This document shows, piece after piece, positions 11,504 to 47,579 of a stretch of DNA of 64,000 nucleotides (position 1 is the first letter of the stretch; every line of letters begins with the position of its first letter). Made by a program: the position numbers and the translations under genes. The stretch is taken from assembly GCA_014871385.1 (NCBI GenBank), contig CM026426.1:30431452-30495451 (forward strand), written 5' to 3'. The notes beneath the pieces were generated by a model, which searched no databases, was not told the origin of the DNA, and was given only the letters and a program-made list of their open reading frames with translations. The DNA is from Ceratodon purpureus. Its lineage: Eukaryota; Streptophyta; Bryopsida; Pseudoditrichales; Ditrichaceae.

Positions 11504-11600
11504 GGGGAAAGTTCGTATGTGAGCGGAGAGCACAGAATGGAGAGCACAAAAATGACAATTAGCCAAATTTTCAAAAGCAAAGTAGACCCTATAAACGTGG
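11504..11600. repeat. Terminal inverted repeat, methyltransferase-side end of element B
   Basis: GGGGAAAGTTCGTATGTGAG is followed by GAGAGC repeats and then AATGACAATTAGCCAAATTT. This matches the reverse complement of the right end of element A (about 26400-26539). The preceding bases ATAGTAGATG would be a target duplication, but the partner end of B is lost. Confidence 0.75.
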
Positions 11601-11924
11601 AAAATTACTAAAATAAGGCATGAGTTTGTTATTTTTTATAGGAAAAGAGTATATTATTGTGGAATTTAGGGTTCTCTCTGGTAAGAATTTCTTACATTTG
11701 TACTATGAGGTACAAATTAGGGTGATGTCATGATGACGTCATGCATACAATCCTTTAGATTTGGTTATTTATTGGATCAAGATACGAGTATTCCAGCATG
11801 ATGTTTTTAGATAATATAGATAATTCTAGGAATAAGAAAACTCGAAACAAGCAAAAGAAATGGTCTTAAAAGTTTGTGGAATATTTCAGAGTTTGTGTAC
11901 AATTATGGAGTAGCTGAAACCAAG

Positions 11925-12604
11925 ATGTATACCAAGTCTGACTGCTTGTCTTCGTCGAAGAATTCTCCGTCTTACATAAGACCATTCCGAGCTTAAGTGT
12001 CAAGCAACGATCTATATAAACCTTAGCAGATGTCCTTGAAGTTGTATTAGCTCAATGATTTCTGTAGAACTTAAGCGTATACTTGCTAGGGAGTTGTTTG
12101 AAGGTATGTGCGATTCATTTGAGGTCGTTGCCTGTGACACGGTTTTACAAGATTTGCTTAAGCGGATGGCAGATGGGCCTAACCCCTAGGATCATATAGG
12201 TAGTAATGCAACGCAGGGTTGGACTCCTCCCAAGGTAATCACGTTTGAAGACATCGAGCACGCTCGTGCTGTGTTGAAGAGTTGGAAGCGGGAAATTGAC
12301 AGCAGTCTTGAAAATACATGCCTTCGGCTAGCAAGGTGGGATTACTTTTCGTACGAGGGTCGCCATTAGAGTCCAAAGGACGAATACAAAGTCAATCGGT
12401 TCAACATCAACTGGAGTGTTTTTAGGAGTTCTTGAAAACTTGAAAATCCAATTTACAACGAGAGGTTAGAGACAGCGTCCCTTGGAGAACTTAGTTGCGT
12501 TGAGTTAGATCAGTTGAGGTCATTGCTATTGGCCAATGGGAATCAGGTCTTAGATGTGCCGGAAGGAGATAAAATTTATTCGAGAGATGGTATCTGGATC
12601 TCTC
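11925..12604. mobile_element. 680-bp insertion within the end of element B
   Basis: Element A reads GCTGAAACCAAGATTAGG without interruption (reverse complement of about 26090-26112). In B the same text is split after CCAAG at 11920-11924 and resumes with CCAAG at 12605-12609. The 680 bp between are absent from A. CCAAG would be a 5-bp target duplication. No terminal repeats are obvious. The insert carries the broken frame described next. Confidence 0.55.
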
Positions 12605-12618
12605 CCAAGAATAGGTAA
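12055..12618 (+). pseudogene. Unrecognised ~187-codon gene fragment with three in-frame stops
   Basis: From the ATG at 12055 one frame runs to TAA 12616-12618. It is interrupted by TAG 12187-12189, TAG 12367-12369 and TGA 12433-12435, with no frameshift. The blocks between stops look like real protein: MISVELKRILARELFEGM, then ITFEDIEHARAVLKSWKR, then ELDQLRSLLLANGNQV. The product is mixed helical and charged. I do not recognise the family. The three stops are compatible with CAG to TAG and CGA to TGA changes. The last few codons run past the right edge of the 680-bp insert. Confidence 0.4.
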
Positions 12619-12902
12619 CATGGCTATGGTTTAGGGTGAGATTTTGTATGATTAAGAAAGTAATTACAACAATATATATATTGTGAGCATTTCAGTTGTA
12701 ACATTTCATTGTTCGTGTTACATTTTGAGCATTGCAATTGTGACATTTCATCATTGTGACAATCACGGATACGAACTGGAAATGAGAATCATAACTACGC
12801 AAGTGTGTTTGCAATAGAGTAGACAGAGGATTATGCAATCAACTCCAATTAAATCAAATCAAATCAGATGAAAACAATAATAGACCAAAGCCTCCTTCAA
12901 AC

Positions 12903-14385
12903 TCAGAACATACTACAATCGCTACTTCCACTCTCAGAACTAGATGACTCTGAATCTCCTTCTATAGCCTCTGCATCGACAAATACAAGGGCCCTGGGAT
13001 CAAAAGTAGTTGGCCGACTAGGAACATATATAAGGGCTCGAGATTTGAGCGCTTGTGTTAAGTCCTCTGCATAATCTGGAAGTATATAAGGCTAAATCGG
13101 ATTGGAATGAAGACGCCACGATGGAATGGACACGGGCCTTGGCCTACGTGGCGGTGTTGCCTCAACTACTCTGCAAGAGAAAATCGAGAGTGGTAAGAAT
13201 GAGTAGGTGAAGATGGAATCAGTAAAGAAGCAAAGGGAACTAGCCCTGAAGTTAGAAAATGTAAAGAAGAACTTACAGTACTTATCTCGTCTTGCTCTCT
13301 TTGGAGGTGCATCTTCAACTGCTGCCGGTCTAGGATGTTTTGGAGGGCCCATGGCGGATGGCGTAGCCATATACGGTTTGAGAAGGGCGTTGAATATGGC
13401 TTCGTCCTCCTCACAAGCTATGATATGACGACCAATACTCTGGCAAGCCTTGATGGAGGCACCTGAAACATGTAGCACAAGAAAGAAGTCAGTCCTAGTG
13501 GAGAAAATCAGAGGATGGAAATGGAGAAACTGTTAATGAAGGATTACCTGTTCCTGCCATCCACTCAAAGACTATGTCACCGGGCTTAGACATCTCCTCA
13601 ATTATGCCCTACATCATCTCAGGGGCTTTCTCCCTTGGGCCTCTCCACGGCACCTCCACATTCATGTGCTGCGATTCCACATCGGTGAAGTTGAGAATGG
13701 CATCACTCTCGGTAATGTGCAGGTCGTTGTATGCAACATCGGATTTCTTCGTTTGAAAAGAGAACCTGGATGGGGGATGACCACCACGAATGAAGACGCG
13801 CACCCAGAATCGAAGAGACTGCGTGATACCAAAATATGTGAGTGTAATTAATCAGAAAGCTTAGTAGAATGCAAAGACAATGAATGATTATGATGTACAT
13901 ACCAAGGAGCCGGGGTTCGTAGGGTGAGCCAAGCCTTGTGCATTAAAGCCCCACTAGTCTCAGTGCTGTACGAAACCATCAAGGTTGGCCAATTCAGTAA
14001 TCCGCGTAGTAAGTTTTTGGTCGTTGTTGTGGATTATGCAAAGAGCACCATCATACTGCAAGTAATGTCTTGCAAATTCGAAGAGGTCCTCCAAATACTC
14101 CTTATGACGTTTGTTCCAAGATGGAGTGATGTAGGGGGGATTGGATATCGTAGGGACCGGAAGATTCTCAGGAATGTCGGCAATGATCAAGTCGAATCCC
14201 AAGTGATTCTGCTCTTTGCATCTTGGCGGAACTCGGTTCTCGCGGCCTGCTCCAAACTTGAGTAAACAAGAGAACAGAGTTAGACATTAATTGATTTAGA
14301 GTAATGTACGTATTAAAGGGAAAGCACTAAGCAACGGGACATACCATTCGAACAATGTCTAGAGCCTTGTTCCAATCGTGATCGC
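12903..14385 (-). pseudogene. Element B ParB-methyltransferase gene, C-terminal half
   Basis: This is the 3' half of B's methyltransferase gene, severed by element A. Reading from 14385 downwards it finishes the exon cut by the insertion, passes an intron, and gives IIADIPEN and NPPY. Then come GPREKAPEMM, the TAG at 13609-13611, SKPGDIVFEWMAGTG and GRHIIACEEDEAIFNALL. Stops: a TGA and a TAG in the exon near 13960 (the TAG opposite TGG in A), the TAG at 13609 (also TAG in A), and TAG 13092-13094 where A has CAG (25615-25617). The terminal serine-rich tail ends with TGA at 12903. Motif I (AGTG) is better kept here than in A (AETG). Confidence 0.75.
14376..14385. repeat. Target-site duplication, left of element A
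   Basis: TCGTGATCGC at 14376-14385 is repeated at 26540-26549, immediately outside the two ends of element A. A 10-bp duplication fits the 8-11 bp range of MULE-type elements. Removing A and one copy restores the exon frame of B and its donor site GTATGT. Confidence 0.93.
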
Positions 14386-14461
14386 GGAGGTAGCTTGTAC
14401 GTGAGCGGAGAGCGGAGAGCGGAGAGCGGTGAGCAGAGATTTGGAGAGCGGAGAGCACAGA
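14386..14461. repeat. Left terminal inverted repeat of element A
   Basis: The repeat starts at GGAGGTAGCTTGTACGTGAG, then has GCGGAGA repeats and ends near GAGAGCACAGAATGG at 14461. It pairs with 26463-26539. Just inside lie an AT-rich stretch and a 40-base poly-T run at about 14861-14900, which has a poly-A counterpart in B at about 35035-35055. Confidence 0.85.
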
Positions 14462-14862
14462 ATGGGGAACAGAACCTAAAAATAGCAATTTTTAAATTAA
14501 AAATATACTATAAAATTAGAAGATTCGAATATTCTCAGTATATTTTTAGAAATAATCTTATTTTAGTAATTTAATTGACCCTATAACCGTGGACTAATTA
14601 CAGTATTCTCATTGAATTTGTAGTTCGTTTTCTCTTTTCTTGGTGATTCACTTTTTCACGTGCACCAATTACTATGCTCTTGCTCCTTCTAACTGGTTCA
14701 GGCATACATTAATTCCCCTTATTCCCTCACATTTATATGCAAATTACTATTTAAAATGTATTGGTATTGAAGCTCTTAAGAGGGATCAAGTTACATGTAA
14801 TATCGTAACATTTTCTTAACATTGCTATAATTCATCCACCATAGTCTACATGCCTTTCTTCT

Positions 14863-14907
<45 letters not shown>

Positions 14908-15367
14908 GTCTTGTATTTTTTATTAACTTTCTTTATTCTACCTATCTTGTTAGAGGGGTCAAAAGCCTCCTTTCATTTAATGTTCTCCTTCATTTTATTT
15001 TCACATTCATTTGTTTAATCTCCTTCATATTATTTTCAACCTTCATATTAAATATTGCTTTTGTTTACTTTAATCTATTTAATTTTATTTTTTATAATTT
15101 TTTATTTTTTTAATTTTTTTTAATTTTTTTATAATTTCATTTTTATTTTTTGTTTTTTTATTTTTTTATTGCTAAATGACCTCTCCTAAACCCTCATCTT
15201 TTTCGATTCAGTTTAGGAGGATGAGAACTTTTAAACGAATGAAAAGCTGATTTTCAAGGGCGCCAAGCATCTTCTTCAGGGATATTTAAGATAAGAGTAG
15301 AGAATGTCTCTTCTTCTTTCGTGTTGGTGTTCTGTGAAGCTCTTTTCCGTAGTACGGGACAGCAGTT

Positions 15368-15820
15368 ATGGAGGACGTCAGAGATATTGTTGCTCCACTT
15401 GCTGACGATGTTTGTCTATTTCAACCATATGTTCAGGTGGAGGACGAAGAAGAGGTGATGGCCAACAGCCAAGGGTGTCCTTTGACAACGGATAATGACG
15501 TACAACCAGATGTAAGAGCTGATCCTCTACGTTCTGAAAAATCAGATGATATCATAGTGTTGGAGGAGGACGCAGGTATGCCTTTGGAACCTCATGCATA
15601 CTCCAAGGTTGGAAAGATCCCAAGGGGAACCTATTCCAGGGAATGAGTATATCGGAGGTGGGGAGGTGGGCCATTGCTGAAACGTTCATACCAAGGACAC
15701 TTGCCAAGTGTGGGAACGAAGGTGAACGCAAATGTAGTTTGTCCTGCAGTACAGTCAGAGGTTCGCAGCCCTAGGGATAGTGTAGTGGGCAACCCTAAAC
15801 GTGTTAGGTTCGAAGATTAA
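15368..15820 (+). pseudogene. Small acidic ORF of element A with one in-frame TGA
   Basis: An ATG at 15368 opens MEDVRDIVAPLADDVCLF, followed by an acidic segment (EDEEEV, DDIIVLEEDAG). A TGA at 15644-15646 falls in a basic stretch where CGA (Arg) would fit. The same frame continues through KRSYQGHLPSVGTKV to a C-terminal RVRFED and TAA at 15818-15820. In element B only the second half is present, because about 305 bp corresponding to 15356-15660 are missing there. The function is unknown. The gene lies between the left terminus and the end of the SWIM ORF and is convergent with it. Confidence 0.45.
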
Positions 15821-16071
15821 GACATCTAATAACAAGTATATGTTTGCTGTAATAAAGGGTACATGTCAGGGGATACAAAGTATATAGTGCACTTGTTCAA
15901 GATAGAATGTTTTGAACTAGAGTGCAATCAATGTGAACGACAAAGCCTTTATAATGAAAAAGTCAATATAGCTTCTGTATTGCTGACTTAGTACATGGGA
16001 TATTACTAAAATCATTCACTACGTGACAAATGGCCATTGTGGAAATGGCAGTTCTAAAGTAGGAGGGCTAC

Positions 16072-17322
16072 CTACTTCTTCGCCAAGGGGTGACGCAAGA
16101 TTCCACTCTCTAAGAGTAGCTTGACCTCGTTGAAGCTGAAGGTAGGCGCATGGATGAAAAGCTCGGCTTCGGGATCACGGTTGGAGACCTTCAAGAGTAT
16201 GTAGTATAGGTGCTTACAATACGTGAACTGAGTCTTGCCACGGAACGTAGTCATCGTCCTCTTGAATGCTGGGCAAGTGCAACCAGAGTAAGAACTGATG
16301 GTAATCTGGTACCGTGTGATGTGTGGAGCGACGCCCGAATCCAGCCCAATGATGCAACCGTGGCCCGGCTCAGGTATCATGGTGACGGAACGGAGGCGCG
16401 CTTTGAGAGACTCGGAGGAGCCTATAGAGAGTTGCTGCGCCGGATTGGGACGAGTGGCAGTGCGCTTCACCATCTTGTCGTCTCTCTTGTCTGGGTAGCG
16501 GTCAGCGTCTGCAGGGACTGGCACCGAGCTGAGATTTGCAGGGGGCGGGGCAGAGGAGAAGAGGCGTCTTGGGGAGACCGGCTTCTTCGGCGGAAGTTGA
16601 AAACCTGTTGCTTTGAGGGCAAGAATCTCGGTGAGTTTGAGGTAAGTACCATGTTTCACTAAATAGACCTCTGGAATGGAGGGGAATTCCTCGTCCTGTG
16701 AGTAGTGTGCAACCCACTTGCGCTTAGAGCCTTTCAGGCAGCGCTCAATATCGTCGGAGCAGAAAAAGAACTCTGTCTTCTCAACTGTGTTCCTGCGATA
16801 GTTAGTCCAAAGCCCAGTGTAGGTCGGTGCAGCTGTGCAATGGGGCCCCCTGACAATTCTCTCAGTGCACTTCTTTTTCATTTCAGCTCTTTGGGCCCAG
16901 CAGCACTTTGCAGAAAGTTTGTGAAGTCTCGAAATGTGCCACTCCTTCACGTCGACCTTGGTTTCTTCAACCGCGTTGACATGGCGAATGCCGGCCTTGT
17001 TCACAGGTGAAGGTAAAGGGGAATCAACTTCCTGGGCAGGAGATTGGGTACCTTTTACCTTGGTGTCTTCTTCGGAGTCGTTTTCCACAATGATGAGCAT
17101 CTGCAAAGGGCGAGCCTTGACGGCGCCTCTTGGGCCTCTCGGGCGAGAGAAGTTTATATTGTCCGGCCGATAAGACTCTTCGTAAGCTCTGATGGGAACG
17201 TCGACTTTTCGCTTCTGTGAACCAAACACATCTGCTCCAGGCATGATAGGTTGACGGGTGCAGACCTCATCCGCTCTAGGCATATCGAGCATGGGTCTTC
17301 GAGCAGTGTAGGATTTCCTCAT
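16072..17322 (-). CDS. SWIM zinc-finger protein of element A
   Basis: This is an intact 416-codon frame. The ATG at 17322 (MRKSYTARRPMLDMPRADEV) is preceded by an A-rich context. The stop is a TAG at 16072-16074. Near residues 345-375 it has CTC..(about 20 residues)..CKH, the CxCx(n)CxH pattern of SWIM fingers. In MuDR/MULE and FAR1-type proteins this pattern follows the transposase core. The middle has proline-rich linkers, a WTNYRRNTVEKTEFFF block and a basic segment. I do not see the DDE triad. It is an accessory or remnant transposase C-terminus, probably DNA-binding. The copy in element B (32926-34176) differs by only one residue (Ser/Gly near the end). Confidence 0.72.
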   Translation of the reverse strand: MRKSYTARRPMLDMPRADEVCTRQPIMPGADVFGSQKRKVDVPIRAYEESYRPDNINFSRPRGPRGAVKARPLQMLIIVENDSEEDTKVKGTQSPAQEVDSPLPSPVNKAGIRHVNAVEETKVDVKEWHISRLHKLSAKCCWAQRAEMKKKCTERIVRGPHCTAAPTYTGLWTNYRRNTVEKTEFFFCSDDIERCLKGSKRKWVAHYSQDEEFPSIPEVYLVKHGTYLKLTEILALKATGFQLPPKKPVSPRRLFSSAPPPANLSSVPVPADADRYPDKRDDKMVKRTATRPNPAQQLSIGSSESLKARLRSVTMIPEPGHGCIIGLDSGVAPHITRYQITISSYSGCTCPAFKRTMTTFRGKTQFTYCKHLYYILLKVSNRDPEAELFIHAPTFSFNEVKLLLESGILRHPLAKK

Positions 17323-17380
17323 TTTTTCGCCTTGCGTTCCGCCATCCTGAGCTTCAGTTCCTTCTTTGATGGTCTAGAAC

Positions 17381-17414
17381 CCAAAACCCTAAAACCCTAA
17401 ATCCTAAACCCTAG
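17381..17414 (-). promoter_or_regulatory. Telo-box / interstitial telomere-like repeat
   Basis: Degenerate (AAACCCTAA) units lie about 60-95 bp upstream of the SWIM ORF start and directly after the zinc-finger ORF stop (17411-17413). AAACCCTAA boxes are known in plant promoters. Here they may be a promoter element for the SWIM gene, or filler left where the transposase core was lost. The inverted copy in B is at about 32832-32868. Confidence 0.5.
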
Positions 17415-18841
17415 GTCACGCATAGCTCCCTAACAAGAACCTTATTCTCTTGGACATACGCCCAGAGACTGTTTCCACGAAGCTTGGTGATACCGTCCAT
17501 GATTCCGTACCTTCTGTGTTTTTTGAAGGTCGCGACTTTGTTGCGGATGTTTGGTGACGCCATGTCTTTGCATCGATCCAGAACAGGAACCACCTCCTCC
17601 ATCGTCAGCTTCCTCGGTGGTGCATCCTCAGGCTGTAGCAGGTAGCTCCCGATGAGGAGTTTGCTCGCCTCCAGGACAACGGCGCTCTTCGTTGCTTTCT
17701 TGTTCATCTCTACCTGCTCTTCTATTAAGCTACTGATCTCTGCTTTAGAGTCTTTGTAGTTTCCAACTTTCACTGGATGATCATGTGTTCCTATGTGAAT
17801 ACAAGCTCTAGTATGATTTGCTTTGCCCACTACGTAATAAATCTTAGCCTCGCATGTAGCTACACATGATGGAGGTTCTTTACATACCTTGCACACTAGC
17901 GTGGAGTCAGATGGAGGAGGCTGATCCATGACAAAAGCTTGCAGGGTACAGCCTTCAAACTCAGTCTCGTTAACCTCGAAGATCTTGGGAACACGCTTCA
18001 GGAAGTCACAGTCCTTGTTGCTGCAGCGCAGTCATCCGACGCAGGTGGAACTTTGGAAAGACAGTCCGAAGTCGTTCTTGATGTTTGTTGTGATGGTCTT
18101 GGTCCACAAGTGACCGTCGTATCGTTTGTCCATTCCGTGCATTGACTTGGCGGCGAGCTTAGAGGAACCTGCAGCAGCTGGGGGCAACTCAAAAAGAATC
18201 GGACCATCAAACTTCGCAGGCAAGTACTCTACTCTCTCGTGTCTAATAGTAGAATAGTCTATCTTCTTCAAAATGTTTATTGACCCACGCGCCTTTGCAA
18301 GCTCTTGAAGGAGAGGAACAATGCTATCTGTGACCTGGGACAATGGAGGAGAAACACTGGAAGGAGGTGCATCAGCGTGGACCTTAGGTACCAACTTGAC
18401 GGGGCTGACTTCGTCATCAGAGGAGAGAGAAATGACTGTCGGGGGAGGAGGTTTCTCTACGTCTGAAGTTTCAGTACCAGGCTCGACTTTGACGTTGACA
18501 TCACGAGGTAAGGGAGTCTATCTTGTGCAAGTAGAAGAGCGACGGGGGGTGAGGATCTCAGTGGATGCAGCCATTAGAGAATCAGTAAGACCATAGACTC
18601 TATAGGATCCAAGGATGAGTCTCCACTGCAACATATTGTTCTCATCTCTCATAGAACGTTGCCCGAGGGTGTGGGTAACCTCGGCAGTAACGTCATCAAA
18701 GATTTCTTCCTCTATACTGATGGTATCCTCACGGAAATGGAATCTGAGACTCAGGCGAAGAGAGGAAACTGTAGCTAGACCATCGTCATCTACGCGAAAC
18801 CTAAGAGGGATGCCCATGCCTTCGGCGTACAGACAGACCAT
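17411..18841 (-). pseudogene. MuDR-like N-terminal zinc-finger ORF of element A, two in-frame stops
   Basis: One frame runs from the first shared Met (18841, MVCLYAEGMG) to TAG 17411-17413. It is broken by TAG 18518-18520 (STCTR*TPLPRD) and TGA 18032-18034 (TCVG*LRCSN). After an acidic/proline-rich linker come LRCSNKDCDF and VCKVCKEPPSC..C, then ACIHIGTHDHP. This is the Cys-Cys/His-x-His layout of the WRKY-GCM1-like fingers that open MuDR-type transposases. The frame ends with WAYVQENKVLVREL, about where the DDE core would begin, and then meets telomere-like sequence. Both stops are also present in B, so they predate or were copied between the two elements. No ATG lies in frame further upstream. 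Confidence 0.6.
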
Positions 18842-18929
18842 CCCGATGTTCGCAAGCAACTCAGTGATACTAGTGGAAGAAGGGAGGAGAGTGAGAGTAC
18901 TAGCGAAGCAGTATCGCGAGAGCAATGTG

Positions 18930-19449
18930 AGAGGAATGATGCATCGCTGTTGATCATCTTATTGTAGTTGGAATGTCCATGTGGACGAGTATGTAATGAT
19001 TCATTCTGTTATCTAATGAATGTATGATTTAAGAGAGACGGCGCTAACTAATTAGAATGTTGCTTTTTGCAGGCCCAAGTTTATCGGGTAGGAATTTTTA
19101 GAACAACGCATTTAATATTTGAATCGTGGAACCGATTCTATTTGATGTGAAGTTTGGTGAGATTAGAGTGAGCCGTCAGTTGCATCCATATTTAATACAA
19201 GTGTTCCGGTGCTTAATTAAAATTTTTTAATATTTTGTGGGCTTGGTTAATTCTCTTCCAATGTAGATTGATCGCATCAGCTTTAATTCAAAATGCAATT
19301 ATTTATAGTTTTCATTAATTTAAGTAGGTTTAGAATAAGGTAAGTATTTAGGGCTGAGTCAGGGGAGTTGAAGGTTTGGGATATATAAGAGGATGGGAAA
19401 TTAGAAGGAGAGCTTTATTGTGAAGAGAGTTCTCTCGTTAGTTAGACAC
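18930..19449. promoter_or_regulatory. Divergent promoter region of element A
   Basis: This ~520-bp AT-rich stretch separates the minus-strand zinc-finger ORF from the plus-strand ParB-methyltransferase gene. A TATATAA box lies at 19382-19388, about 62 bp before the ATG at 19450. Element B lacks about 660 bp here (equivalent to 18930-19590). Its methyltransferase gene has therefore lost the promoter and first ~45 codons. Confidence 0.55.
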
Positions 19450-22400
19450 ATGAAGGAGAGTGGAGGGTCTGCTCCCTCCACTTATGTGACTCCTAAACCT
19501 AAAAGAAAGGCATATGGTACAGATTTGACAAACAGGAGAGCGAGGAAGAGGAGAGAATCACGTAGAAAGGTGAAAGGTAACCTCTTGAGTGCACCTCTAA
19601 AGGTTCGAGGAGCTGGGCTGCCTGTGGCAATTAAATTTTGTAGCATCCGTAAACTCATTCTAGAGTCCATAGTAGAGGTGAAAGATGAGGTTTCAGAGGA
19701 TACCGCAGTTGAGCATGAGGAGCATGAGGTAATAAGTAGCGGAGAGAAACACCTGGAGATGACGGAGGAGCTAGGGTTCAAATCCAGTCCGACTTTGGGG
19801 ACACCACAACCTTCTTTCCGATTCAAGGAGTGTTCAACAAGAGGGACAGATTCTCAGTCGAGCGACCATTCTAACACGGATGTGGTAAGTTTCATAATCC
19901 ATAAATTAAAAAATGCTAAATGTAAATTATGTATTTTTGTAGAGTTATATTAGGTTAGAAGTATTGTCTTTGCTGCGGGTTCATTTTTTTACTGTTTAGA
20001 ATAGTGATGCCGCAATAAACTGAATGGTTGTTCAAAATAAGAGTCGAGTAGTAATTCTCGTCTTAGTCTTGAACATTTGCGCAGATTGTCGACTGGTTTA
20101 GGATTGAGCAATAGGTTGTAGAGGAGAAGACTTGAGAAGTGGATACGGTCGAGGAGTCAGATCTTGAGACGTTGAGAAAAATCGCTAGGAGAGCGAGACG
20201 CCAAATTATGGAGGCGGGCAAAGGTGGGGAAGTACTTGCTGCTACACGAGCAGGGCGAGGGCACCTTGGAAGTCCTATTGAAACCAGTGGGGAGGATGTT
20301 GATTCGCTCGACATTGTGGTAGGCCCAGGAGAAGAGGATATGGATGAGGGGTCGGCCCGAGGGAGAGGTCGAGGGGCCGAGGTGGAGGGTCGAGGGAGGG
20401 GTAAGGGTCGAGGTGGGAGAGGGAAGGCCTCTTTGCAAGCCCCATTGCAACAAACACCTACAGCAACAGTAGAGGAGGGGACATCTAAGGAGATGGCGGA
20501 GGGTGGAGAGGAGCATGGAGAGGAGCGTCTGGAGGAGGACATTGCGAGTGAGCAAGGCGGATCGGACCGCGGCCCTGCTACCGAGGAGGTGAGGATTTCA
20601 ATTCGGGTTTTGAGTCTTTTTGAATTATGGGTGTTGAGATTTGTTGGGGTTGTGTTTGTGGGTGATCAGTAAGAGAGGGTTCAAGCCGCGAGTGAATTAG
20701 ACTAAGTGGCTTGGAAGAGATTGTGGAGGAGGAGGGGGAGGAAGTGGGGGAAGGGGGGGATGCATTACAGTGGACCCTTGCGGAAGCCATGGCCGCGGCA
20801 AGGAAGGTCGGAGGTGGAGGCATGGAGAGCCGCATTGGAGATGCAGCCCCGGGGGAAGCCACCCCCGCCAAGGCGCATTCGGAGCTGACACTCCCCCACG
20901 AGGAGGGGGAGGATGTGGGGGAGGATGGGATGATTTTACAAATAAGAAGAATTCGGATGCTTGGGGAAATATATTGTTTATTTGTAATTTTTGCGTTTTT
21001 CTTGTTGTTTGATGTTTTCTGTTGAATTCTTATGATCTGTATATCCTTTGTGTTGTAGGAGCTCACAGAGTAATTCACCGCAAGTGACTTTGATGGCCCA
21101 ACTCCTGCAGAAGCTGAGGTGATTTAATTTGATTTGCATTCTCAATTGAACATAGCAAAGTCTATTGAACTTCCGTAATCCTTTTTAATTTTGTTCCAAT
21201 ACCTTAGTTGGGAAACTGACACTTTCTTTGATCCTCTTCTCTAGGTATTCTGAGATGCACCCTTGTCCATCAGTTCCCCGATCTCAGTGATCAATGTTTC
21301 CGACCTCTCGGATTCATTTGATCAGCCCTACTGTAGGTGTGCTTTAGGCAACCCTGTAGGTTTAGGTAGTGGACCTCTCGAGGTCCACTCTCCTCAGTAC
21401 ATGCCTACGTCCCCTGTCTACGAGCCTACATCCCCGGGCTATATGCCTACTTCTCCACGACTTGGTACCCCGCCAATGTCTCCACCTTCTCCTTCCTCCC
21501 CTATTAGAGTGAGGAGGCCAGCCCATGTTGTCTTCGCCCTCCCAGCGATATTGCCATGCCCTGTCCAGCAGACGAGGCGATTTTGGAAGAGGTGCCGTCA
21601 CTGGAACTGTAGACAGGCTAGGGAGTATTATAGTCGTGCACCACGCACATAGTGGCCTGTGTTCTACTTATTACTACTGCTAATAATTTGGTTCTCAAAA
21701 GAGATGTACCAGTCTAAGAAGCTATTCTTTTATTATTCTTTATAATATTTGATTTGCTTACGATCCTTGTCTTCGAATCAAGTCTAAATATGTATGACCT
21801 TTGACAGGTAACTCAAACACAGGATCAGTTGCCAGCGCCATCTTGTCCTACTGAATTGACGAATGCAGTGGACAGTGAAATGGAACATAGAAAACAGTAC
21901 AAAGTGGACTCTATAGCCGTCATCAACGATCTCCAAATACTCCCAAAGACAAAGTCCCGTATCCTTGTTCCCCTTTGCCGGATGCAATCAATGGCAAGAG
22001 TGCGACCTGTAGGAGAAATGGGAGTTCAACATTTGGAGCGAGAGTTTGTCAATGGATATAGAGATGGAGACCGGGTCATGTACATTTCCATGTACAACCA
22101 CGAAGAGAAGACAGCCGAAGTCACTCCGGAGATCAAGGCTGACTGGAGCCCTTGTTGGCAAAAAGTCAATGATGCTTTCGAGGATGAGCTCTTGGCCGAT
22201 CCGGACTGGAAGGAGTTCTCCAAGAAGATGTTCTATGTCTGGGAAGGTAACCATCCCCTTGCCGCATGGTACAGACATATCAACAACCATCACTATCAAG
22301 ATCCAGCTTGGCACATCTCCGTGCATTGCATTGTTCTTGACCCACGCTGTCATGTGGGAAACCTTCTTCATGCCATGCACGACATCAACTGGTAAGAATT

Positions 22401-25400
22401 TTTTCCCTACTTCTTGTCCTCACTTCTTGAAAGCTGCTTGAACTTGCACTACACGGCTTTTACTAACTACCATATCTTTGAGCAGGTCTACAGAAAATGA
22501 TCATGTAAAGAGTAATCTTCCTGCAAAACTCTTTCGTATTCGCTCTTTCGGTGTGATGAAATTGGAGGAATTCAAGGATCTGCTCTCACCCGAGAAGTAT
22601 CAATTATGTTTGAATCACAAACCATCAATTCCTGGATGGTTTACTTTGCCAACCAAAATCTTCATCGCATTTCTTTATCGTGTAAGCACTTCTTCCCCCC
22701 CCCCCCCCCCCCCCACGCTTCTAAATGTCATGAATTGTCGTGCTCTGTACACTCAGAAGTTGATAATTTTATTTTCCAGAGAGAAATCGTGGCTGCTTCT
22801 CACGAAGCTGCCAGGACCTACAAGGAGAAAACACCCATAAAAGAGCAAACGGCGGCAGGTGTTTGGGATGCCATGTCTGCCGCTACGACCAGCATGGTCG
22901 ACTACATTAAGAAGAAGGACTTCACCAAGTACCTGGCCATTGCCAATCCCAAAAACGGTGATGACTTCCTTGCAGAGGTGAGTTTTCTGACATTTCTACT
23001 TTAGTTTTCAATAAGTAGTTCAAACTCTAATCTTCCTGTTCATGTAATGATCACTTCCCAGATCAATCGGCATTACAGTGATTTTTCCAAAGCCGAGATG
23101 ACAGTGGATAAGCTTCAGAAGATTGTTCCCGCAGCTGTTGATGCCAAATTTAAAGCCCGTTGGCTAAGGTGGTGGAACTCTTCACCAAGTGCACGACAAT
23201 CATACAGATTTTTGCCCCAAGAATTGAAGGAGGCCGACTTGGACCCCTGGTTGAACAAGGCCACATTCTGGGCTGCGGTATAGTTCTTCAAACTTTGTAA
23301 CAATTACTAAAACCACTTCTTCTTTGTTTAATGTCCATGTTTACCTCAACGACAATACCTTTCTGTCGCAGCTGGAGGATGCTGTTAACCGGGAGTTTGA
23401 TGACATCTATAAGCCCGAGAACCTTGTCATTAAGTGGAAGTCCTTCCCGGGACTGTTGCGGCCAGACGCATATGTGGAAAGTTGGCGTATTCTCCTTTGG
23501 GAAAAAGCTTTCCCCTCATTTCTTAGTACCCGCGCAGAGAAGGCTTTCGATAAGAAGTCAGATTTTTCCACTTTTCCAGGAGCAGCAGATGTTGTCAAGC
23601 GTGTGACATACCGGTATGACATTTATGAACTATGACTTCGTATGTTTTTTCCTTTTTGCTTTTATTCACTGTCAATATTATGATTCTGATTTATGGCAGT
23701 TGAATTTCATTAGGTACTTCAAGAGAGAGCTGCTTCCGAAAGGTGCAATTGACCCTGAGAAGTTCCCTCGATACTTCGCCTCGTGGATTCAGAGAGGCTC
23801 TGATCAGTGTATCTATACTTCTCTCCAGTTGAAGAGGTACAGCTCGCCGCACCTTGCCGCTAGTTGTTGGTACCTCGACTGCATTCAAGGTTTCTTTATT
23901 GAGTCTGAAGCGGAGCTCAAAGGTGAGCTTGACGTGGGATCAATAGCCGTCGATGATTCTGAAGACGGTTCTGATGAGGCCGAAGGCCTTCAGGATCAGT
24001 CATCTGCACCTCCACCAAAGAAAGGGCGGGCGCGGCGACTGTGAAAGCTAGGATCGAAGTCCTTGGGCTCACAAGATACTGGTGCGGAGTCTTCCGCACC
24101 AGGAAAGGAGACACCCAACGCTTCTCCAACCACAGACGTCTTAGTGCCAACTTTGACCACTGCGAATGCTCCATCATTCATTAGTGCTTCTGATATCTCC
24201 AGAAGTCTCATTGAGCAGAGGAAGGCCAAACTCTTTCCCTATATCACTTCTTCCGCTGGAGCTTTGAATTCCACATATGTTTCCGTCTTCAACTCATCTG
24301 TGGATTCAGTGATGCGGCGAAATAAGAGACAGGAGAGAAAAGGTGGCGGCGACCCAGATTGGATCAAGACTCAAGACTTCATTCGCGAGGTATGTTTTGT
24401 TCTTCAGACATTTCTTGCATACATCTACTTCTATTCATTTTTTAGTTTCTAACTCTGCTTTCTTGTTTCTTCAAGTTCGGAGCAGGCCGCGAAAACAGAG
24501 TTCTGGACAGGTGCAAACAAGAGAACCATCAGGGAGTCGACCAGATCATTGCCGACATCCCTGAGGATCTTCCAGTCCCTTCCGTTTCTGACCCCCCCAC
24601 GAGTATTCCGCCTTGGAACTCTCGCTACAAGGATTATGTGTACGACATCTTCCATTTTGCAGATCAATACCTGCAGACAGCTGGTGCCCTCTGCCTCATC
24701 TACAATAGTGATCAGAAGTTGGCTAAGGATATCGAGGAAGAAGCTCAGGGTCATGACTTCGTGCTTTACAAGGACTGGTGGGGCGTCAATTTTCTCGGCC
24801 TGACTTCTCCTACGAACCCCGAGAACTTGGTAATTCCATCAGAACATTTTCTTCTCTTTACTTAGTGATAACTGTTCTCCTTATTTATATTCACTAGTTT
24901 TATTGAGTGCAGACTATGCGGTTCTGGATTCGCGTCTACGTTCGTCGTGGCAGTAATTTCTCTTTCCAGACGAAGAAATCACAGTTGATACATGGGGTCC
25001 TCAACATTACCGAGAGTGATGCCATTTTTAACTGGACCAATGCAGACTCGCAACAAATGAATGGGGACATTCCATGGAGAGGGCCAAGGGAGAAAACCCA
25101 CGAGATGATGTAGAGCATAATTGGAGAGCTTTCCAAGCCCGGAGACATAGTCCTCGACTGGAATGCCGAAACAGGTAACTATCCATACATATGTCTGTTT
25201 CATTTTCGTCTCGTTTCTTCAATAGTTTCTAAATTCTTTGTTACTCTCCGAGTTACAGGGGCCTTCATCAAAGCTTGCCAGGCTATTGGTCGTCACATTG
25301 TAGCTTTTGAAGATGACGAAGCCATCTTCAACGCCCTTCTCAAACCGTACATGGCTAGACCATCCGCCATGGGCCCTCCTAAACATCCTAGGCCGGCAGC

Positions 25401-25758
25401 AGCAGACGAAGCGCCTCCAAAGAGAGCAAGACCTGAGAAGTGGTGTAAGTCTTCTATTCTTTGTTCAAATTATCCAAGCACTGCTTCTCTTTGCACCTCT
25501 ACGTACTCAATGTAACCACAATCGGTTTTCTATTGCAGAGTAGTTTCGGCAACACCGCCACGTGGGCCAACATCAGTGTCCACTCCATCGTGGCGTCTTC
25601 ATTCCAGCCCGATTCAGCCTTTTATATTTCCGGACTACGCAGAGGACTTAGCACAGGCGTTTCAATCTGGAGCCCTTACATATGTTCCTAGTAGGCCAAC
25701 TACTTTTGATCCCAGGGCCCTTCTATTCGTCGATGAAGAGGCTGTAGAAGGAGATTGA
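19450..25758 (+). pseudogene. ParB-like / amino-methyltransferase fusion gene of element A
   Basis: A ~15-exon gene. Likely exons: 19450-19884, 20085-20588, one or two near 20701-20940 (uncertain), 21059-21118, 21245-21651, 21808-22391, 22486-22681, 22780-22977, 23062-23277, 23372-23613, 23714-24389, 24476-24829, 24913-25174, 25259-25444, 25541-25758. Order: basic/RG-rich acidic N-terminus; CTD-like repeats; a block with VRPVGEMGVQHLEREF then WEGNHPLAAW (ParB-like; B has GNHRL); a helical region; then IIADIPED, GALCLIYNSDQ, KPGDIVLDWNAETG and GRHIVAFEDDEAI. Motif IV preceding motif I matches permuted (beta-class) amino-methyltransferases. In-frame stops: 20112 TAG, 20133 TGA, 21071 TAA, 24042 TGA, 25111 TAG. 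GNHP and AETG suggest lost activity. It ends 20 or so codons earlier than B (TGA facing TCA). Confidence 0.7.
21395..21505 (+). other. RNA polymerase II CTD-like repeats in the element-A gene
   Basis: Within exon 21245-21651 the frame encodes SPQYMPTSPVYEPTSP, then GYMPTSP, then PPMSPPSPSSP. These are close to the YSPTSPS heptads of the largest RNA polymerase II subunit. Element B has four such units (about 29380-29490, minus strand), including YMASSP and YIPTSP. They are followed in both by a conserved block RVRRPAH..FALPAILPCPVQ. Confidence 0.8.
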
Positions 25759-26462
25759 GAGTCATCTAGTTCTGAGAGTGGAAGTAGCGATTGTAGCATG
25801 TTCAGAGTTTGAAAGAGGCTTCGGTCTTTTATTGTTTTCATTTGATTTCATTTGATTTAATTGGAGTTCATTGCGTAATCCTTCCTCTACTCTACTGCAA
25901 ACATCCTAAACTTGTTATGATTCTCATTTCCAATTCATCTCCGTGTATGTAAAGGATGAAATGTCACAACTGTAATGCTCAAATTATAATATGAAGAATG
26001 AAATGTTACAAAAGAAATGCTCAAAATTAATATTGCGCTGTAATTTATATTTTAATCATTCAAAATTCCACATTTTCATAGCTATGTTACCTAATCTTGG
26101 TTTCAGCTACTCCATTATTGTACACGAACTCTGAAATATTCCACGAACTTTTAAGACCATTTCTTTTTGGTGGTTTCGAGTTCTCTTATTCCTAGAATTA
26201 TCTATATTATCTAAAAACATGATGCTGGAATACTCGTATCTAGATCCAATAAGGGACCAAATCTAAAGGAATGTATGCATGACGTCATCATGACATCAGC
26301 CCTAATTTGTATCTTAGAGAACAAACGTAATAAATTCTTACCAGAGATAACCCTGATTTCCACGGTAATATACTCTTTTCCTAAAAAAAGTGTCAAAATC
26401 AAGCCTTAATTTAGTAATTTTCCACGGTTATAGGCTCTACTTTGCTTTTGAAAATTTGGCTA

Positions 26463-26539
26463 ATTGTCATTTCTGTGCTCTCCATTCTGTGCTCTCCGCT
26501 CTCCGCTCTACGCTCTCCGCTCACATACGAACTTTCCCC
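26463..26539. repeat. Right terminal inverted repeat of element A
   Basis: The sequence CTCTCCATTCTGTGCTCTCC leads into repeated CGCTCTC units and ends GCTCACATACGAACTTTCCCC at 26539, next to the TSD. Its reverse complement matches 14386-14461 and the end of element B at 11504. Confidence 0.88.
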
Positions 26540-26549
26540 TCGTGATCGC
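26540..26549. repeat. Target-site duplication, right of element A
   Basis: This is the second copy of TCGTGATCGC. On the minus strand it lies within the B codons reading GGDH. Confidence 0.93.
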
Positions 26550-29500
26550 CACCCACGTCAGAGAGCTCTTTGTGTCGAAGCTGAACCGAATCCACACAGG
26601 AGTTGATGACATAAACCTGTGTGGAATGCGGAGATCCAGCGGAAGAGGTAGTCTGAGGAAATTGCTTGGTCTTCCTCTGCTCAAGGAGACTTCTGGTGAT
26701 CTCGGAAGCACTGATCAAGGAAGGACTTGGCGAAGAAGTTGAAGAAGGCTTCGTAACCACATTACCTGGAGAGGGCTCTGGTGCCTTCTACTCTGGAGCG
26801 GAAGACGCCGCACCGGTTTGCTGTGATGCCTGTGAATGTGAACGCAAAGATTTTAGTCGCCATCTCCCTTTCTTCGGTGGAGGAGCCAATGATTGGTCTT
26901 CATGGCCTTCGTCATCTTCAATACCATCGACCGTGTCTTCGATAACCACCTCACCGGCATCGTGTAAATTCTTGACGTCCACCTCCGAGTCAATAGTGAA
27001 ATCACGAAAACAATCAAGATATTAGCATCCAGCTTCCAAGTGGGGAGCTTTGTATCTTTTCAACTGCTGGGGTGAATAAATGCACTGATCCGAGGTTCTC
27101 TAAGTCCAAGCAGAGAAGTACTTAGGAAGCTGCTGGACAGTGATGGCGCCTTTTGGAACAAGCTCTCATTTGAAGTACCTAAGAAAACTATTTTATAGAA
27201 GGTTAGTTTCCGAGAAAAAAATAGAGTCTATTATGTAAGGCGATTGTGATTAAGTTAAGAATAATACCGGTAAGTAATCCGCTTGACAACCTCTGCAGTT
27301 CCAGGGAATTTACAGAAATTGGACTTCTTGTCGAAGGCCTTCTCGGCCGTCTTTCCAATGAACGTAGCGAAGGCCTTCTTCCATAAAAGAATACGTGAAC
27401 TCTCTACATAAGCGCCCGGTTCCTGGACATCTAGAAAATCCTTCCAATTGATAACGAGGTTCTCTGCTTTACATATGTCCTCGACTTCATTGACGACAGC
27501 CTCCTCCAACTGTGATGCACAATTCAATTCAGTAGGGATGAGGTAGAATGCAGACAGAGAAGGAAGCAACGTGTAACTGGAATGGAGAGGTATTTAAAGA
27601 AACTATACCCCAGCCGAGAATGAAGTCTTGTTCAACCAAGGGTCGAGGTCGGTTTCCTTGAAATCGAGCGATAGAAATCTGTAAGATAGTCTGGAACTCG
27701 GAGATGAGTTCCACCACCTCAACCAACGGGCCTTGTATTTGGCCTCAACTGCCGCTGGCACAATCTTCTATAGCTTATCGAGGGTCATCTCCGGTTTTGA
27801 AAAGTCACTGAAATGCCCATTGATCTGCAAGAAGAATGATCGTTTTAGAGAGATTGAAATGCAGAAATGATGTAATGATACAAAATATTTTACAGAGCAT
27901 CGCAGCGGGATTTACCTCATTGAGCAAGTCGTCACCGTTTTTGGGATTTGCGATAGCAAGGTACTTGGTGAAGTCCTTCTTCTTGATGGATTCGACCATT
28001 CTTTCAGATGCCTCAGTCATGACATCCCAAACTGCATTTGCAGTTTGTTCCACCTCTGGAGTCTTCTCAAGGTAGGCCCTAGCTGCTTCATCGGAGGCCG
28101 CTGCAATTTCGCGATGTTCCAAAAATTTGACATGCTTATGTAAGTTGAAAAATTATCAAAGTATGAAGAGCGAGGAGGTGAAGGACGTGAAACTTACTCG
28201 GTACAGAAATGCGATGAATATTCTCGTTGTCAAGAAAAACCATGACGGATAAGGGGGCTTGTGTTTCAAACATGCATCATATTCTTCTGTACTCAGAAGG
28301 TCTTTAAACTCCTCCAACTTCATCATTCCGAATGAGCGGATTCAAAACAGTTTTGCTAGAAGCTTACCCTTCACGTGGTCATTCTCAGTCGACGTGAATA
28401 TTAAATCAAAAACTTAGAAGAATTATTCTTAACAAAAACAAAAACTTCAAAATGGACAAACAAATACAAATACATAAGTACGTACCAGTTAATGTCGTGC
28501 ATTGCATGTAGGAGATTGCCCACATGGCCGCGGGGGTCAAGTACAATGCAATGCACAGAGGTATGCCATGATGGGTCGTCCGCATGATGCTTGTTTATAT
28601 GCCGGAGCCACGCGGAGAGGCGATGATTACCTTCCTAGACAAAAAACATCTTGTTGGAGAATTGCATCCACTCCTTGTCTCCACAGATCTCATCTTCAAA
28701 ATGGTCACTCGCGGCCCTCTATAAAGGGCTCCAACGAGCCATGATCTCCGCCGTAACATCCTTCGTCTGCTCTTCATTGTTGTACATGGAGATGTACAAG
28801 AAGCGGTCCCCATCTCTATATCCCTTCACGAACTCCCGCTCCAAGTGCTGCACCCCCATTTCGCCCACCGGTCTAACCTTGGCCATGGAGACCATCCTGC
28901 AGAGGGGGACCATCATGCGCAACTTCTTCTCTGGTTTTATCCTAAGCTTGTTGATGACGCCTATAGAGTCCAACTTGTTTTGTTTCCGATGCTGCAATTC
29001 GCCTTCAAATGCAGTCTTCAAGTTAATTGGGCAGGATGGTTTTACCAACACATCTTGTGTTTGCGTAAGCTGCAAGAGGTGTGACAGTTATTACTCATAG
29101 CGCAGCCAAGGAATGTCTTGCAAGGAAGTAATTAAATATAAAGTAAAGTTACAAAATCATATCATATCTTGTAATTGTAGGTATCTATGAAAGATACTAT
29201 CTACGTGATGCACGCCTATAATACTCCCTAGACTGTCTACAATTCCAGTGGCGGCGCCACCTCCAAAATTGCCTGGTCTATTGGACAGGGCAAGGCAGAA
29301 TTGCTGGAAGGGCAAAGATTGCATGGGCAGGCCTCCTCACTCTAATAGGCAAGGAAGGAGAGGGTGGAGACATCGGCGGTGAATCCTGTGGAGGAGAAGT
29401 GGGGATGTAATGCGGGGAGGTAGGCTCATAGACAGGGGAGGAAGCCATGTAAAGAGGAGAGGTAGGCATGTATTGTGGAGAGTGGACCTCAAGAGGAACA

Positions 29501-31330
29501 CTACCTAAACCTACAGGGTTTGGTACATCACAGGTACAGTAAGGCTGATCAAATGAATCCGAGAGGTCGGAAACATTGATTACTGAAACAATGGAAGTGG
29601 CGGACATTCCGGGAGCATCTGAGGATACCTAAAATATGAGAAAAAAGATATAAATCAACCACTTCCAGATAGGAGATGAACTAAAATTAAGGTGATAAAA
29701 GCCAAGGCTGTATAAATTCAAACCAATCAAGTACCTCAGTTTCTGCAGGTGTTGGGACTAGACCACGGCTCCCTATATTATCCTGAGAGGATCCCAATTT
29801 GATGAACAATGAAATCACCATAAGAGGCCACAATAACACACAATAAGTAAAAAAAAAAAAAACTCGAGGCCAGCATCCTCGGCCCTGCCTTGAGCAGGAG
29901 GGCCTCCGCATCGGCCCCTTCGTGAAGGCACCCGACCAAGTGTCGGGGCCGACACTTGAGTGGAGGTGCGAGTCAAAAAAAAAAAAAAAACTCGAGGCTA
30001 GCATCCTCGGCCCTACCTTGAGCAGCAGGGCCTCCGCATCGCCCCCTTCGACAAGGCCTAATATCCACAGACCCCCCACACAAAGAGAACTCAAGAACCC
30101 ACCAACTCATTTGAAATTCTGAAACCCAAGAACCCATAACGAAAACCCAACATCCGCGCAACCCAAGAAGTGAACCCAAAGCCCAACCATACAAAAAAAT
30201 CTAAATTCTAACCCTTCCATACAAACGTCGTGGTATGGGAGGACTGACCTCGTTGGCAACATTCTCGTCGTCCTCCTCCTTGCCTTGGCCAACCTCGTCC
30301 TCCTCCTCACCTGGCCCGTCCTCGTCCTCATGCTCTTCTTCTCCGTCGTCGTCCTCCTGCTCACCAACCTGGTCGTCATCTTCTTCACTCCGTGGCACCT
30401 CCTCTTTGCCTGCTCCGATCGCCCTCAATGCCTCTTCGTCCATCTCCCCAGCAGCTCTCCCACCCCCTGGTTCCCTCCCCCGTCCACGCCCTCCGCGGCC
30501 CGCACCTCCACGCCACCTCCTCCCAACCTGCTTCTCCGAACCCTACTTCTCAGATCTTCAACCTGCTCTGCGCCCAACACCACCTGCATTACGCCCCACA
30601 CCTCTTTGCCCTCCTTTTAAAGGACCTCCACGGGCTGCAAAAGCTCGATCTACGGCCTCCCCTTCTTCCATAATTGCTCGCCTAGCTCTCGCAGCTCCTC
30701 CTCGCCACTCTCCTGATCCTTCTTCTGCTTCTTCTCCACTCACTTCTTCTCTCAATCCTCCACTTTGTTTACCAAACCTAGAACCTCCACCCTCGGTCCA
30801 CTTCCTCAAAAGAACAAAGTTAGCTTAACTACAGAGGAGAATTCAAAGTTTTACTGTATGAAAACTACGTTTAAAAGATGTCTATGAATTCGCAAGACAT
30901 AAATTACTGTGAAGGTCATTGGTTACAACTATAGACTATAGTCATCGGCTACTTAAGACAATAAAATGAGAAACGAAGCAATCACCTTTAAAATTGAACA
31001 ATACACATCCAACAATAAAAGGAAGGTCGGTAACTTACTTCAGTAGATAGTCGATCCTCTGTGAATCCTAGAGCTCTCTCTTCTAAAAGTGACTCGTTTA
31101 AGCCAAACAAAGGCTGCGGAGACTGTGGTGTTTGTAAACCATTTAACCCTAAATCATCCATCATCTCATTACTTTTTTCGTCCATGTTTTGTACATCATG
31201 GTCCCTAACCGTGACATCTAAAACCTCCTCTTTTATTTCCACTATAGACTCTAGAATGAGTTTACAAATGCTACAAAATTTAGTTGCCAAAGGCAGCCCT
31301 GCTCCTCGTACCTTCAGAGGTGCACTCAGG
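26550..31330 (-). pseudogene. Element B ParB-methyltransferase gene, N-terminal part
   Basis: The minus-strand counterpart of A 19590-24380. From about 31330 it gives the block GAGLPLATKFCSICKLIL, then (30800-30230) an RG-rich and acidic stretch, CTD-like repeats (29607-29280), a ParB-like exon (29075-28500) with EGNHRLSAW, helical exons (28330-27255) and the exon cut by element A at 26550. Stops include TAG 29278-29280 where A has CAG (21569-21571), TAG 28635-28637 where A has TGG (22240-22242), and TAG 26788-26790. The ParB-type arginine (HRL) is kept here but is proline in A. The start region is deleted. By eye, protein identity with A is roughly three quarters in the ParB-methyltransferase exons. 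Confidence 0.7.
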
Positions 31331-31406
31331 AGGTTTCTCGCAATACTGCTTCGCTACAATACTCACTTTTCTCCTCTTAACGGAAGAGTTGCCTGCGAAC
31401 ATCGGG

Positions 31407-32837
31407 ATGGTCTGTCTGTACGCCGAAGGCATGGGCATCCCTCTTAGGTTTCGCGTAGATGACGATGGTCTAGCTACAGTTTCCTCTCTTCGCCTGAGTC
31501 TCAGATTCCATTTCCGTGAGGATACCATCAGTATAGAGGAAGAAATCTTTGATGACGTTACTGCCGAGGTTACCCACACCCTCGGGCAACGTTCTATGAG
31601 AGATGAGAACAATATGTTGCAGTGGAGACTCATCCTTGGATCCTATAGAGTCTATGGTCTTACTGATTCTCTAATGGCTGCATCCACTGAGATCCTCACC
31701 CCCCGTCGCTCTTCTACTTGCACAAGATAGACTCCCTTACCTCGTGATGTCAACGTCAAAGTCGAGCCTGGTACTGAAACTTCAGACGTAGAGAAACCTC
31801 CTCCCCCGACAGTCATTTCTCTCTCCTCTGATGACGAAGTCAGCCCCGTCAAGTTGGTACCTAAGGTCCACGCTGATGCACCTCCTTCCAGTGTTTCTCC
31901 TCCATTGTCCCAGGTCACAGATAGCATTGTTCCTCTCCTTCAACAGCTTGCAAAGGCGCGTGGGTCAATAAACATTTTGAAGAAGATAGACTATTCTACT
32001 ATTAGACACGAGAGAGTAGAGTACTTGCCTGCGAAGTTTGATGGTCCGATTCTTTTTGAGTTGCCCCCAGCTGCTGCAGGTTCCTCTAAGCTCGCCGCCA
32101 AGTCAATGCACGGAATGGACAAACGATACGACGGTCACTTGTGGACCAAGACCATCACAACAAACATCAAGAACGACTTCGGACTGTCTTTCCGAAGTTC
32201 CACCTGCGTCGGATGACTGCGCTGCAGCAACAAGGACTGTGACTTCCTGAAGCGTGTTCCCAAGATCTTCGAGGTTAACGAGACTGAGTTTGAAGGCTGT
32301 ACCCTGCAAGCTTTTGTCATGGATCAGCCTCCTCCATCTGACTCCACGCTAGTGTGCAAGGTATGTAAAGAACCTCCATCATGTGTAGCTACATGCGAGG
32401 CTAAGATTTATTACGTAGTGGGCAAAGCAAATCATACTAGAGCTTGTATTCACATAGGAACACATGATCATCCAGTGAAAGTTGGAGACTACAAAGACTC
32501 TAAAGCAGAGATCAGTAGCTTAATAGAAGAGCAGGTAGAGATGAACAAGAAAGCAACGAAGAGCGCCGTTGTCCTGGAGGCGAGCAAACTCCTCATCGGG
32601 AGCTACCTGCTACAGCCTGAGGATGCACCACCGAGGAAGCTGACGATGGAGGAGGTGGTTCCTGTTCTGGATCGATGCAAAGACATGGCGTCACCAAACA
32701 TCCGCAACAAAGTCGCGACCTTCAAAAAACACAGAAGGTACGGAATCATGGACGGTATCACCAAGCTTCGTGGAAACAGTCTCTGGGCGTATGTCCAAGA
32801 GAATAAGGTTCTTGTTAGGGAGCTATGCGTGACCTAG
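31407..32837 (+). pseudogene. MuDR-like zinc-finger ORF of element B (near-identical to A)
   Basis: An inverted copy of 17411-18841. It has the same TAG (31728-31730), the same TGA (32214-32216) and the same finger cysteines and histidines. I noted only three residue differences: Glu/Gln in the leucine-rich stretch, Gln/Arg before SSTC, and Asn/Asp after VKVG. Upstream of the shared Met the two copies become unalike at once. The sequence then jumps to the equivalent of A 19590, so the divergent promoter is lost. Confidence 0.6.
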
Positions 32838-32925
32838 GGTTTAGGATTTAGGGTTTTAGGGTTTTGGGTTCTAGACCATCAAAGAAGGAACTGAAGCTCA
32901 GGATGGCGGAACGCAAGGCGAAAAA

Positions 32926-34176: not shown

Positions 34177-34427
34177 GTAGCCCTCCTACTTTAGAACTGC
34201 CATTTCCACAATGGCCATTTGTCACGTAGTGAATGATTTTAGTAATATTCCATGTACTAAGTCAGCAATACAGAAGCTATATTGACTTTTTCATTATAAA
34301 GGCTTTGTCGTTCACATTGATTGCACTCTAGTTCAAAACATTCTATCTTGAACAAGTGCACTATATACTTTGTATCCCCTGACATGTACCCTTTATTACA
34401 GCAAACATATACTTGTTATTAGATGTC

Positions 34428-47409: not shown

Positions 47410-47579
47410 GATGAACTCCTAGAACTGTATAGAGTGATAACCATTAACAATGTTTTATTTTCTTTCATAACTATAGTAACCATTGCATAAACATAACTTC
47501 AATTGGCTTTTTCCTTTCCCGAAGACTCACCTAGAGTCACCAACGCCTAAGTCTGGATATATGCCATATAAAGAGTATC

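Follow-up and report, generated by a model that had tools for sequence, protein, structure and literature searches.

A ParB-methylase gene with an altered catalytic motif in a recently mobile DNA transposon family of the moss Ceratodon purpureus

The DNA analyzed here, hereafter the window, is a stretch of 64,000 bp from the moss Ceratodon purpureus (GenBank assembly GCA_014871385.1, contig CM026426.1, forward-strand positions 30,431,452 to 30,495,451), in which one copy of a DNA transposon (element A) lies nested within a second copy of the same family (element B). The second gene of this abundant and recently mobile cut-and-paste transposon encodes a protein possessing a ParB/Srx-fold domain at the front and a permuted methyltransferase domain at the back, and its ten exons display the substitution pattern of purifying selection. 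A bacterial or phage protein of the ParB-methylase type was probably captured by the eukaryotic transposon; the best joint explanation, which we hold with middling confidence, is that the captured protein now acts as a pseudo-methylase, serving the transposase as a DNA-binding or regulatory partner.

Structure of the ten-exon gene

A preliminary description of this DNA, made from the letters alone, held that both nested elements carry one and the same spliced gene. This proves to be so: in element A ten exons (21808-25812, plus strand), separated by GT..AG introns of 83-100 bp, join into a single frame with three internal stops ahead of the terminal stop, and the counterpart in B contains many stops, more than in A. 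The motifs quoted in that description are found in both copies. It gave the gene about 15 exons and an end at 25758; the ParB-methylase part, for its share, consists of ten exons and ends at 25812. The coding capacity of these exons is about 1,060 residues, the first exon not being fixed; in the lineage of one genomic copy (c1, below) the first exon is immediately preceded by ACT rather than by a base followed by AG, and the acceptor must therefore lie elsewhere.

The ParB/Srx-fold domain is encoded by the exon at 21808-22391. The five middle exons (22486-22681, 22780-22977, 23062-23277, 23372-23613, and 23714-24389) are unassigned in fold and include a low-complexity linker. Motif IV of the methyltransferase, read as IIADIPE, lies in the exon at 24476-24829 (DIPE at 24554-24565), and the loop that binds S-adenosylmethionine (SAM) lies in the exon at 24913-25174 (KPGDIVLDWNAETG; the loop starts at 25156), while the last two exons (25259-25444 and 25541-25812) supply the end of the domain and the tail. 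The loop exon carries an in-frame stop at 25111 which is common to A and B and is a sense codon in all ten copies fetched from elsewhere in the genome. An alternative genetic code, in which TAG is sense, was considered for the shared stops and is ruled out, because of this sense codon and because no conserved A/B frame extends beyond the stop of the upstream CTD-like exon (below).

Copies in the host genome

Hundreds of relatives of the element are present in the host genome. TTTAGGG-like repeats are in keeping with Ceratodon purpureus as the host. A first look with the ParB exon returned 1,887 candidates, the best 150 of which all scored at E 2.2e-111 or better; among these, 125 are without a stop and 65 lie on the window's own contig. 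For the motif IV exon, 146 of the best 150 of 1,666 candidates are stop-free. Because the best candidates alone were scored, these proportions overestimate the intactness of the family as a whole. The ten fetched copies are likewise a non-random sample, made up of eight from two groups of equal score (likely recent), the second-best row (c10), and a low row (c6c); one of them, c3a, contains 3,037 masked bases and has no upstream extension. Exon borders were taken from the alignment to A together with the nearest AG/GT. The search for intact copies that had been proposed did find them, the ten exons being free of stops before the last residues in six of the ten; the remaining copies have one stop (c6b and c6c, each), three (c4), or seven (c10). 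Copies c1 and c12, located on different contigs, are identical over the nine exons compared. No relative was confirmed in viral contigs or GTDB genomes, collections from which the window's own genome may be absent, and a full-length protein search found none among 7,997 candidates scored; single-exon searches did succeed.

The methyltransferase domain and its catalytic motif

The C-terminal domain belongs, in circularly permuted form, to the beta-class amino-methyltransferases (PF01555), and the earlier proposal of such a domain is borne out by profiles from Pfam, by DpnA in the PDB, and by phage methylases. Scored on its own against PF01555 (cut-off 26.7 bits), the domain of A attains 28.0 bits (E 2.7e-6) and that of an open copy 35.8 bits (E 1.1e-8); the whole product of the open copy scores 31.7 bits. 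The match falls mainly over the C-terminal motif X/I part. Further matches are in PHROGs (E 2.7e-8) and, for the open copy, to DpnA (E 5.8e-5) and to phage methylases (E down to 6e-7), while one phage methylase spans 92% of the domain of A at 24% identity (E 6e-3). Alignment with four phage methylases using hhalign, one against one, gives 98.3% probability over 65 columns; the NCBIfam matches are only far under cut-off. The permuted order is evident from the position of the motif IV exon, which precedes the loop exon containing motif I. Similarity is strongest at motifs X and I, and motif IV is aligned by its order and preceding strand (VDLIIVDIPEN against VDAIITDPPYN), a stretch which by itself scores below zero.

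At this position the canonical catalytic sequence (D/N/S)PP(Y/F/W) is replaced in every fetched copy, by DIPE in eight, DIPK in one, and NIPE in one, and DIPE is also present in four database relatives. A genome-wide codon-pattern count yields 620 matches to II[AV]DIPE, this being a total rather than a set placed individually in the motif IV exon, and zero to the reversed control; II[AV]DPP[YF], that is DPPY or DPPF after II[AV], has zero matches. The SAM-binding loop reads DWKAGTG or DWNAGTG in nine of the ten copies, c10 having no readable motif there. Relative to the FxGxG consensus the glycines are kept and the Phe is changed; in A the loop reads AETG.

An active writer, which would place N6-methyladenine (6mA) or N4-methylcytosine (4mC) on element or host DNA under guidance of the ParB domain, would be in keeping with the clear permuted beta-class domain, the purifying selection on it, and the AGTG loop, as well as with the PF01555 enzyme acquired by bdelloid rotifers, which writes 4mC (PMC8885841, in excerpt). 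Yet a change of SPPY to APPA abolished the activity of this rotifer enzyme, N4CMT (same excerpt), and that result, together with DIPE in the open copies and in most of those fetched, leads us to think that this is no ordinary methylase. The suggestion in the preliminary description that the gene writes base modification thus lacks support, given motif IV of the open copies and the genome-wide counts, and we consider an active writer quite improbable.

The methyltransferase half would then most likely be a pseudo-enzyme, since DIPE stands in place of the catalytic motif, while the glycines of the SAM loop (DW[KN]AGTG) are kept. METTL14 is a pseudo-enzyme of this kind that works beside METTL3.

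The ParB/Srx-fold domain

The product of the ParB exon has a ParB/Srx alpha+beta fold, as had been supposed from its motif; an AlphaFold2 model and a set of fold matches, each weak but concordant, agree on this. The Arg of the G-N-H-R motif is found in 33 of the 40 aligned rows with letters at this point (A being among the 40) and in all ten fetched copies, while A itself has Pro (GNHP). Helix 149-161 of the model begins at this Arg position. The conserved Arg would also suit a ParB-type nuclease or NTPase that nicks or cuts DNA through its ParB half as the element transposes, leaving DNA binding alone to the methyltransferase half, and nicking activity is reported for the ParB domain of the Bacillus cereus ParB-methylase Bce_0392 (PMC5512222, in excerpt). 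The gene on the other strand of the transposon is, however, already transposase-like, and we regard a nuclease role as unlikely.

Under the pseudo-methylase explanation the protein would bind the DNA of the element, the heptamer arrays at its ends being candidate sites, or else modified DNA. By analogy with accessory proteins of other plant transposons, it may aid the transposase or counter host silencing. TNPA of En/Spm and VANC of VANDAL are accessory proteins of plant transposons.

Selection and modular evolution

Over 999 aligned codons, A and B differ at 208, 154, and 430 first, second, and third positions, and the ratio of nonsynonymous to synonymous substitution rates (dN/dS) is 0.19. 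Alignment gaps in their exons are mostly multiples of three, with exon 8 showing gaps of 1, 1, and 2 as well; in three introns compared between A and the right part of B, local matches extend to just 17-19 bp. From the 5′ exons to the 3′ end dS drops from about 1.6-1.7 to 0.2 and dN/dS climbs from 0.13 to 0.55, from which it follows that A and B are mosaics in which constraint on the 3′ end was relaxed recently. The divergent open lineages represented by c1 and c9 give dN/dS values of 0.14 for the ParB exon, 0.18 for the middle, and 0.26 for the methyltransferase, at dS of 0.56-1.12.

These selection data disfavor a functionless passenger gene carried by chance. Both window copies are broken, and their last exons have a dN/dS of 0.28-0.55, as a passenger would, but the other exons and the open lineages remain at 0.13-0.26, and the best-scoring copies of the ParB and motif IV exons are for the most part stop-free (125 and 146 of 150); a passenger is extremely improbable. 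The gene had been termed cargo, too weak a word for one that selection has maintained within a family of recent mobility.

The opposite-strand gene behaves differently. Between c1 and c9 its dS is 0.05-0.07, with a dN/dS of 0.155 in the first frame and 0.05 in the second, and the transposase half as a whole is nearly uniform (dS of 0.01-0.08 against c1 in copies except c10), whereas the ParB-methylase half splits into lineages that are as much as dS 1.1 apart. The two halves therefore do not share one history. The window is an extreme case, in that an arm of 3,205 bp in the transposase half of A (15658-18862) is 100% identical to an inverted copy at 31386-34590 in B, while dS in the ParB exon is about 1.6. 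Exchange or gene conversion between the nested copies is the natural reading of the identical arm, an assembly error or artefact being possible. The parts of A and B that neighbor the arms are only about 73-92% identical. It is conceivable, though improbable, that the DIPE center still uses SAM, in a new chemistry or as a reader, and that the protein would be a self-directed epigenetic factor which marks or unmasks its own copies, its versions diversifying behind a near-uniform transposase module.

The transposon and its opposite-strand gene

Element A (plus strand, 14386-26539; 12,154 bp) has the 10-bp repeat TCGTGATCGC on either side, the left copy lying at 14376-14385 and the right at 26540-26549. 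Its left terminus begins GGAGGTAGCTTGTACGTGAGCGGAGAGC and its right terminus, in reverse complement, GGGGAAAGTTCGTATGTGAGCGGAGAG. Element B lies on the minus strand and is split by A, whose insertion point is within an exon of B's gene; on either side of the insertion, stretches of A find their inverted counterparts in B. The 5′ part of B occupies 26550-35410, with its outer end not recognized, and the 3′ part occupies 11504-14375, with the right end GGGGAAAGTTCGTATG. Both A and B are decayed.

Terminal direct repeats of 10-12 bp flank eight of ten elements (A included, c3a not) and were not found for c9 and c10. The elements with repeats measure 12.2-18.7 kb and share their ends, and the terminal inverted repeats and target duplications are those of a cut-and-paste DNA transposon. 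The claim of a eukaryotic DNA transposon with introns is upheld by these shared ends and duplications and by the intron-bearing genomic copies. Arrays of GAGCGGA-like heptamers are situated at both ends: in all eight elements the outer 130 bp contain RGAGC in 5 copies at one end and 4-6 at the other, and none on the other strand.

A putative transposase remnant is located on the minus strand at 16075-18958 and exhibits, by eye, a Cys/His block and a C-terminal CxC...CxH. About 0.9 kb of the putative transposase found in other copies is missing from A (gap between 17374 and 17415). In c1 the opposite-strand gene comprises open frames of 745 and 505 amino acids; Pfam gave no transposase, Mutator-like element (MULE), or SWIM match for the opposite-strand open reading frames (ORFs), these two included. 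The first frame has one stop each in c9, c6a, and c6b, and c9 has two 1-base gaps in addition; c4 has one stop (second frame), c6c two, and c10 five with several gaps, and c12 is without most of the second frame. From its Cys/His residues this gene has a MULE-like look and is putatively the transposase.

MULEs such as VANDAL, with VANC, and MuDR, with mudrB, resemble this transposon in their target duplication of about 10 bp, terminal inverted repeats, and combination of a transposase-like gene with a second gene. They differ in that the CxC...CxH here is SWIM-like by eye only, with no Pfam MULE or SWIM match, and in that the accessory protein is of another fold. By analogy with VANC, the protein could be a counter-silencing factor which reads methylated DNA of the element and removes or blocks host silencing. 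A multi-copy, recently mobile family, a gene under selection, and repeat arrays at the element ends would all accord with such a role, which we rate as possible but doubtful.

The upstream CTD-like and RG-rich regions

The preliminary description extended the protein upstream to an arginine/glycine (RG)-rich and acidic N-terminus and to repeats like those of the C-terminal domain (CTD) of RNA polymerase II. The frames and repeats do exist, the N-terminal and RG-rich/acidic open frames at 19450-20672 and the CTD-like exon (YMPTSPVYEPTSPGYMPTSPR) at 21254-21652, both on the plus strand and the latter upstream of the ParB exon; what is doubtful is their membership in the same protein. The CTD-like exon, with YMPTSPVYEPTSPGYMPTSP, is conserved and ends in a stop that is common to 11 of the 12 copies read (A, B, and nine of the ten fetched, c10 being the exception), and coding constraint reaches this stop (dN/dS of 0.17 over the last 48 codons). 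One continuous gene of about 15 exons is for these reasons unproven. It is possible that the CTD-like exon belongs to a gene of its own, or that it joins the ParB exon in an alternative isoform through splicing from an internal donor; candidate donors for a splice to the ParB exon exist at 21356 and 21509 in both A and B. The transposon-encoded heptads (YxPTSPx) occupy 21398-21460, and B possesses one extra in-frame heptad relative to A. The RG-rich region of c1 and c9 includes a tandem array with a repeat of 171 bp (57 amino acids) in an open frame, which A lacks; the two lineages share its period and differ in its sequence.

Other features of the window

A pair of long terminal repeats (480 bp, 92.5% identical) 20 kb apart delimits 38407-59306. 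Minus-strand matches within this interval are to gag, reverse transcriptase, and integrase, and the last two are separated by plus-strand ORFs (44200-50114), among which are RING-like and kinase-like matches under the Pfam cut-offs. An ORF at 2984-4384 matches DUF7869 (PF25273; E 7.9e-43).

Discussion

Several observations weigh against a captured ParB-methylase that serves as pseudo-enzyme partner of the transposase. The fold matches of the ParB domain are individually non-significant (best Foldseek E 0.12 in the PDB and 0.0068 among viral models), and sequence profiles gave no ParB match, whether in Pfam (41 aligned members), in PHROGs, NCBIfam, and PADLOC (the exon of copy A), or in PDB sequence searches. 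The whole product of A scores 23.9 bits against PF01555, under the cut-off, and DpnA matches A at only E 0.051. Structure prediction of one methyltransferase exon by itself is too uncertain to use (mean confidence, pLDDT, 51.6), and about 500 middle residues between the domains are not accounted for. The count of canonical motifs left out NPP, SPP, and DPPW, and because DIPE is so uniform a changed but still catalytic chemistry is possible. Both opposite-strand frames are full length and stop-free in c1 and c3b only, among nine copies read. The part envisaged for the protein in transposition or anti-silencing, finally, would follow from analogy with other transposons.

Two known systems are closest to the protein. 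Bacterial and phage ParB-methylases of the Bce_0392 type join ParB to an adenine methylase in a mobile-element context (PMC5512222, in excerpt), and a ParB and a methylase domain are likewise joined here; the moss gene differs in being eukaryotic, in its ten exons, in the roughly 500 residues between the domains, and in having DIPE rather than the canonical motif IV. N4CMT of bdelloid rotifers is, as here, a permuted PF01555 methyltransferase in a eukaryote; it is described as a host gene of bacterial derivation with SPPY, a chromodomain, and demonstrated activity (PMC8885841, in excerpt), whereas the moss gene belongs to a transposon and has a ParB domain and DIPE. No literature combining "Mutator-like" with "ParB" was found, and literature search results did not show the ParB-methylase content of this transposon family. 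The family is possibly the same as the "Lanisha" DNA transposons of Ceratodon purpureus, and thus possibly already in print.

If our reading is true, the gene would be a further captured amino-methyltransferase in eukaryotes beside the rotifer enzyme; from a non-exhaustive survey, we know of no other that is carried by a DNA transposon itself. Selection persists on a gene whose catalytic motif is uniformly altered, a combination that lends itself to a clear test among a pseudo-enzyme partner, a reader, and a new chemistry, and with Ceratodon as the host the family is open to study in a culturable moss.

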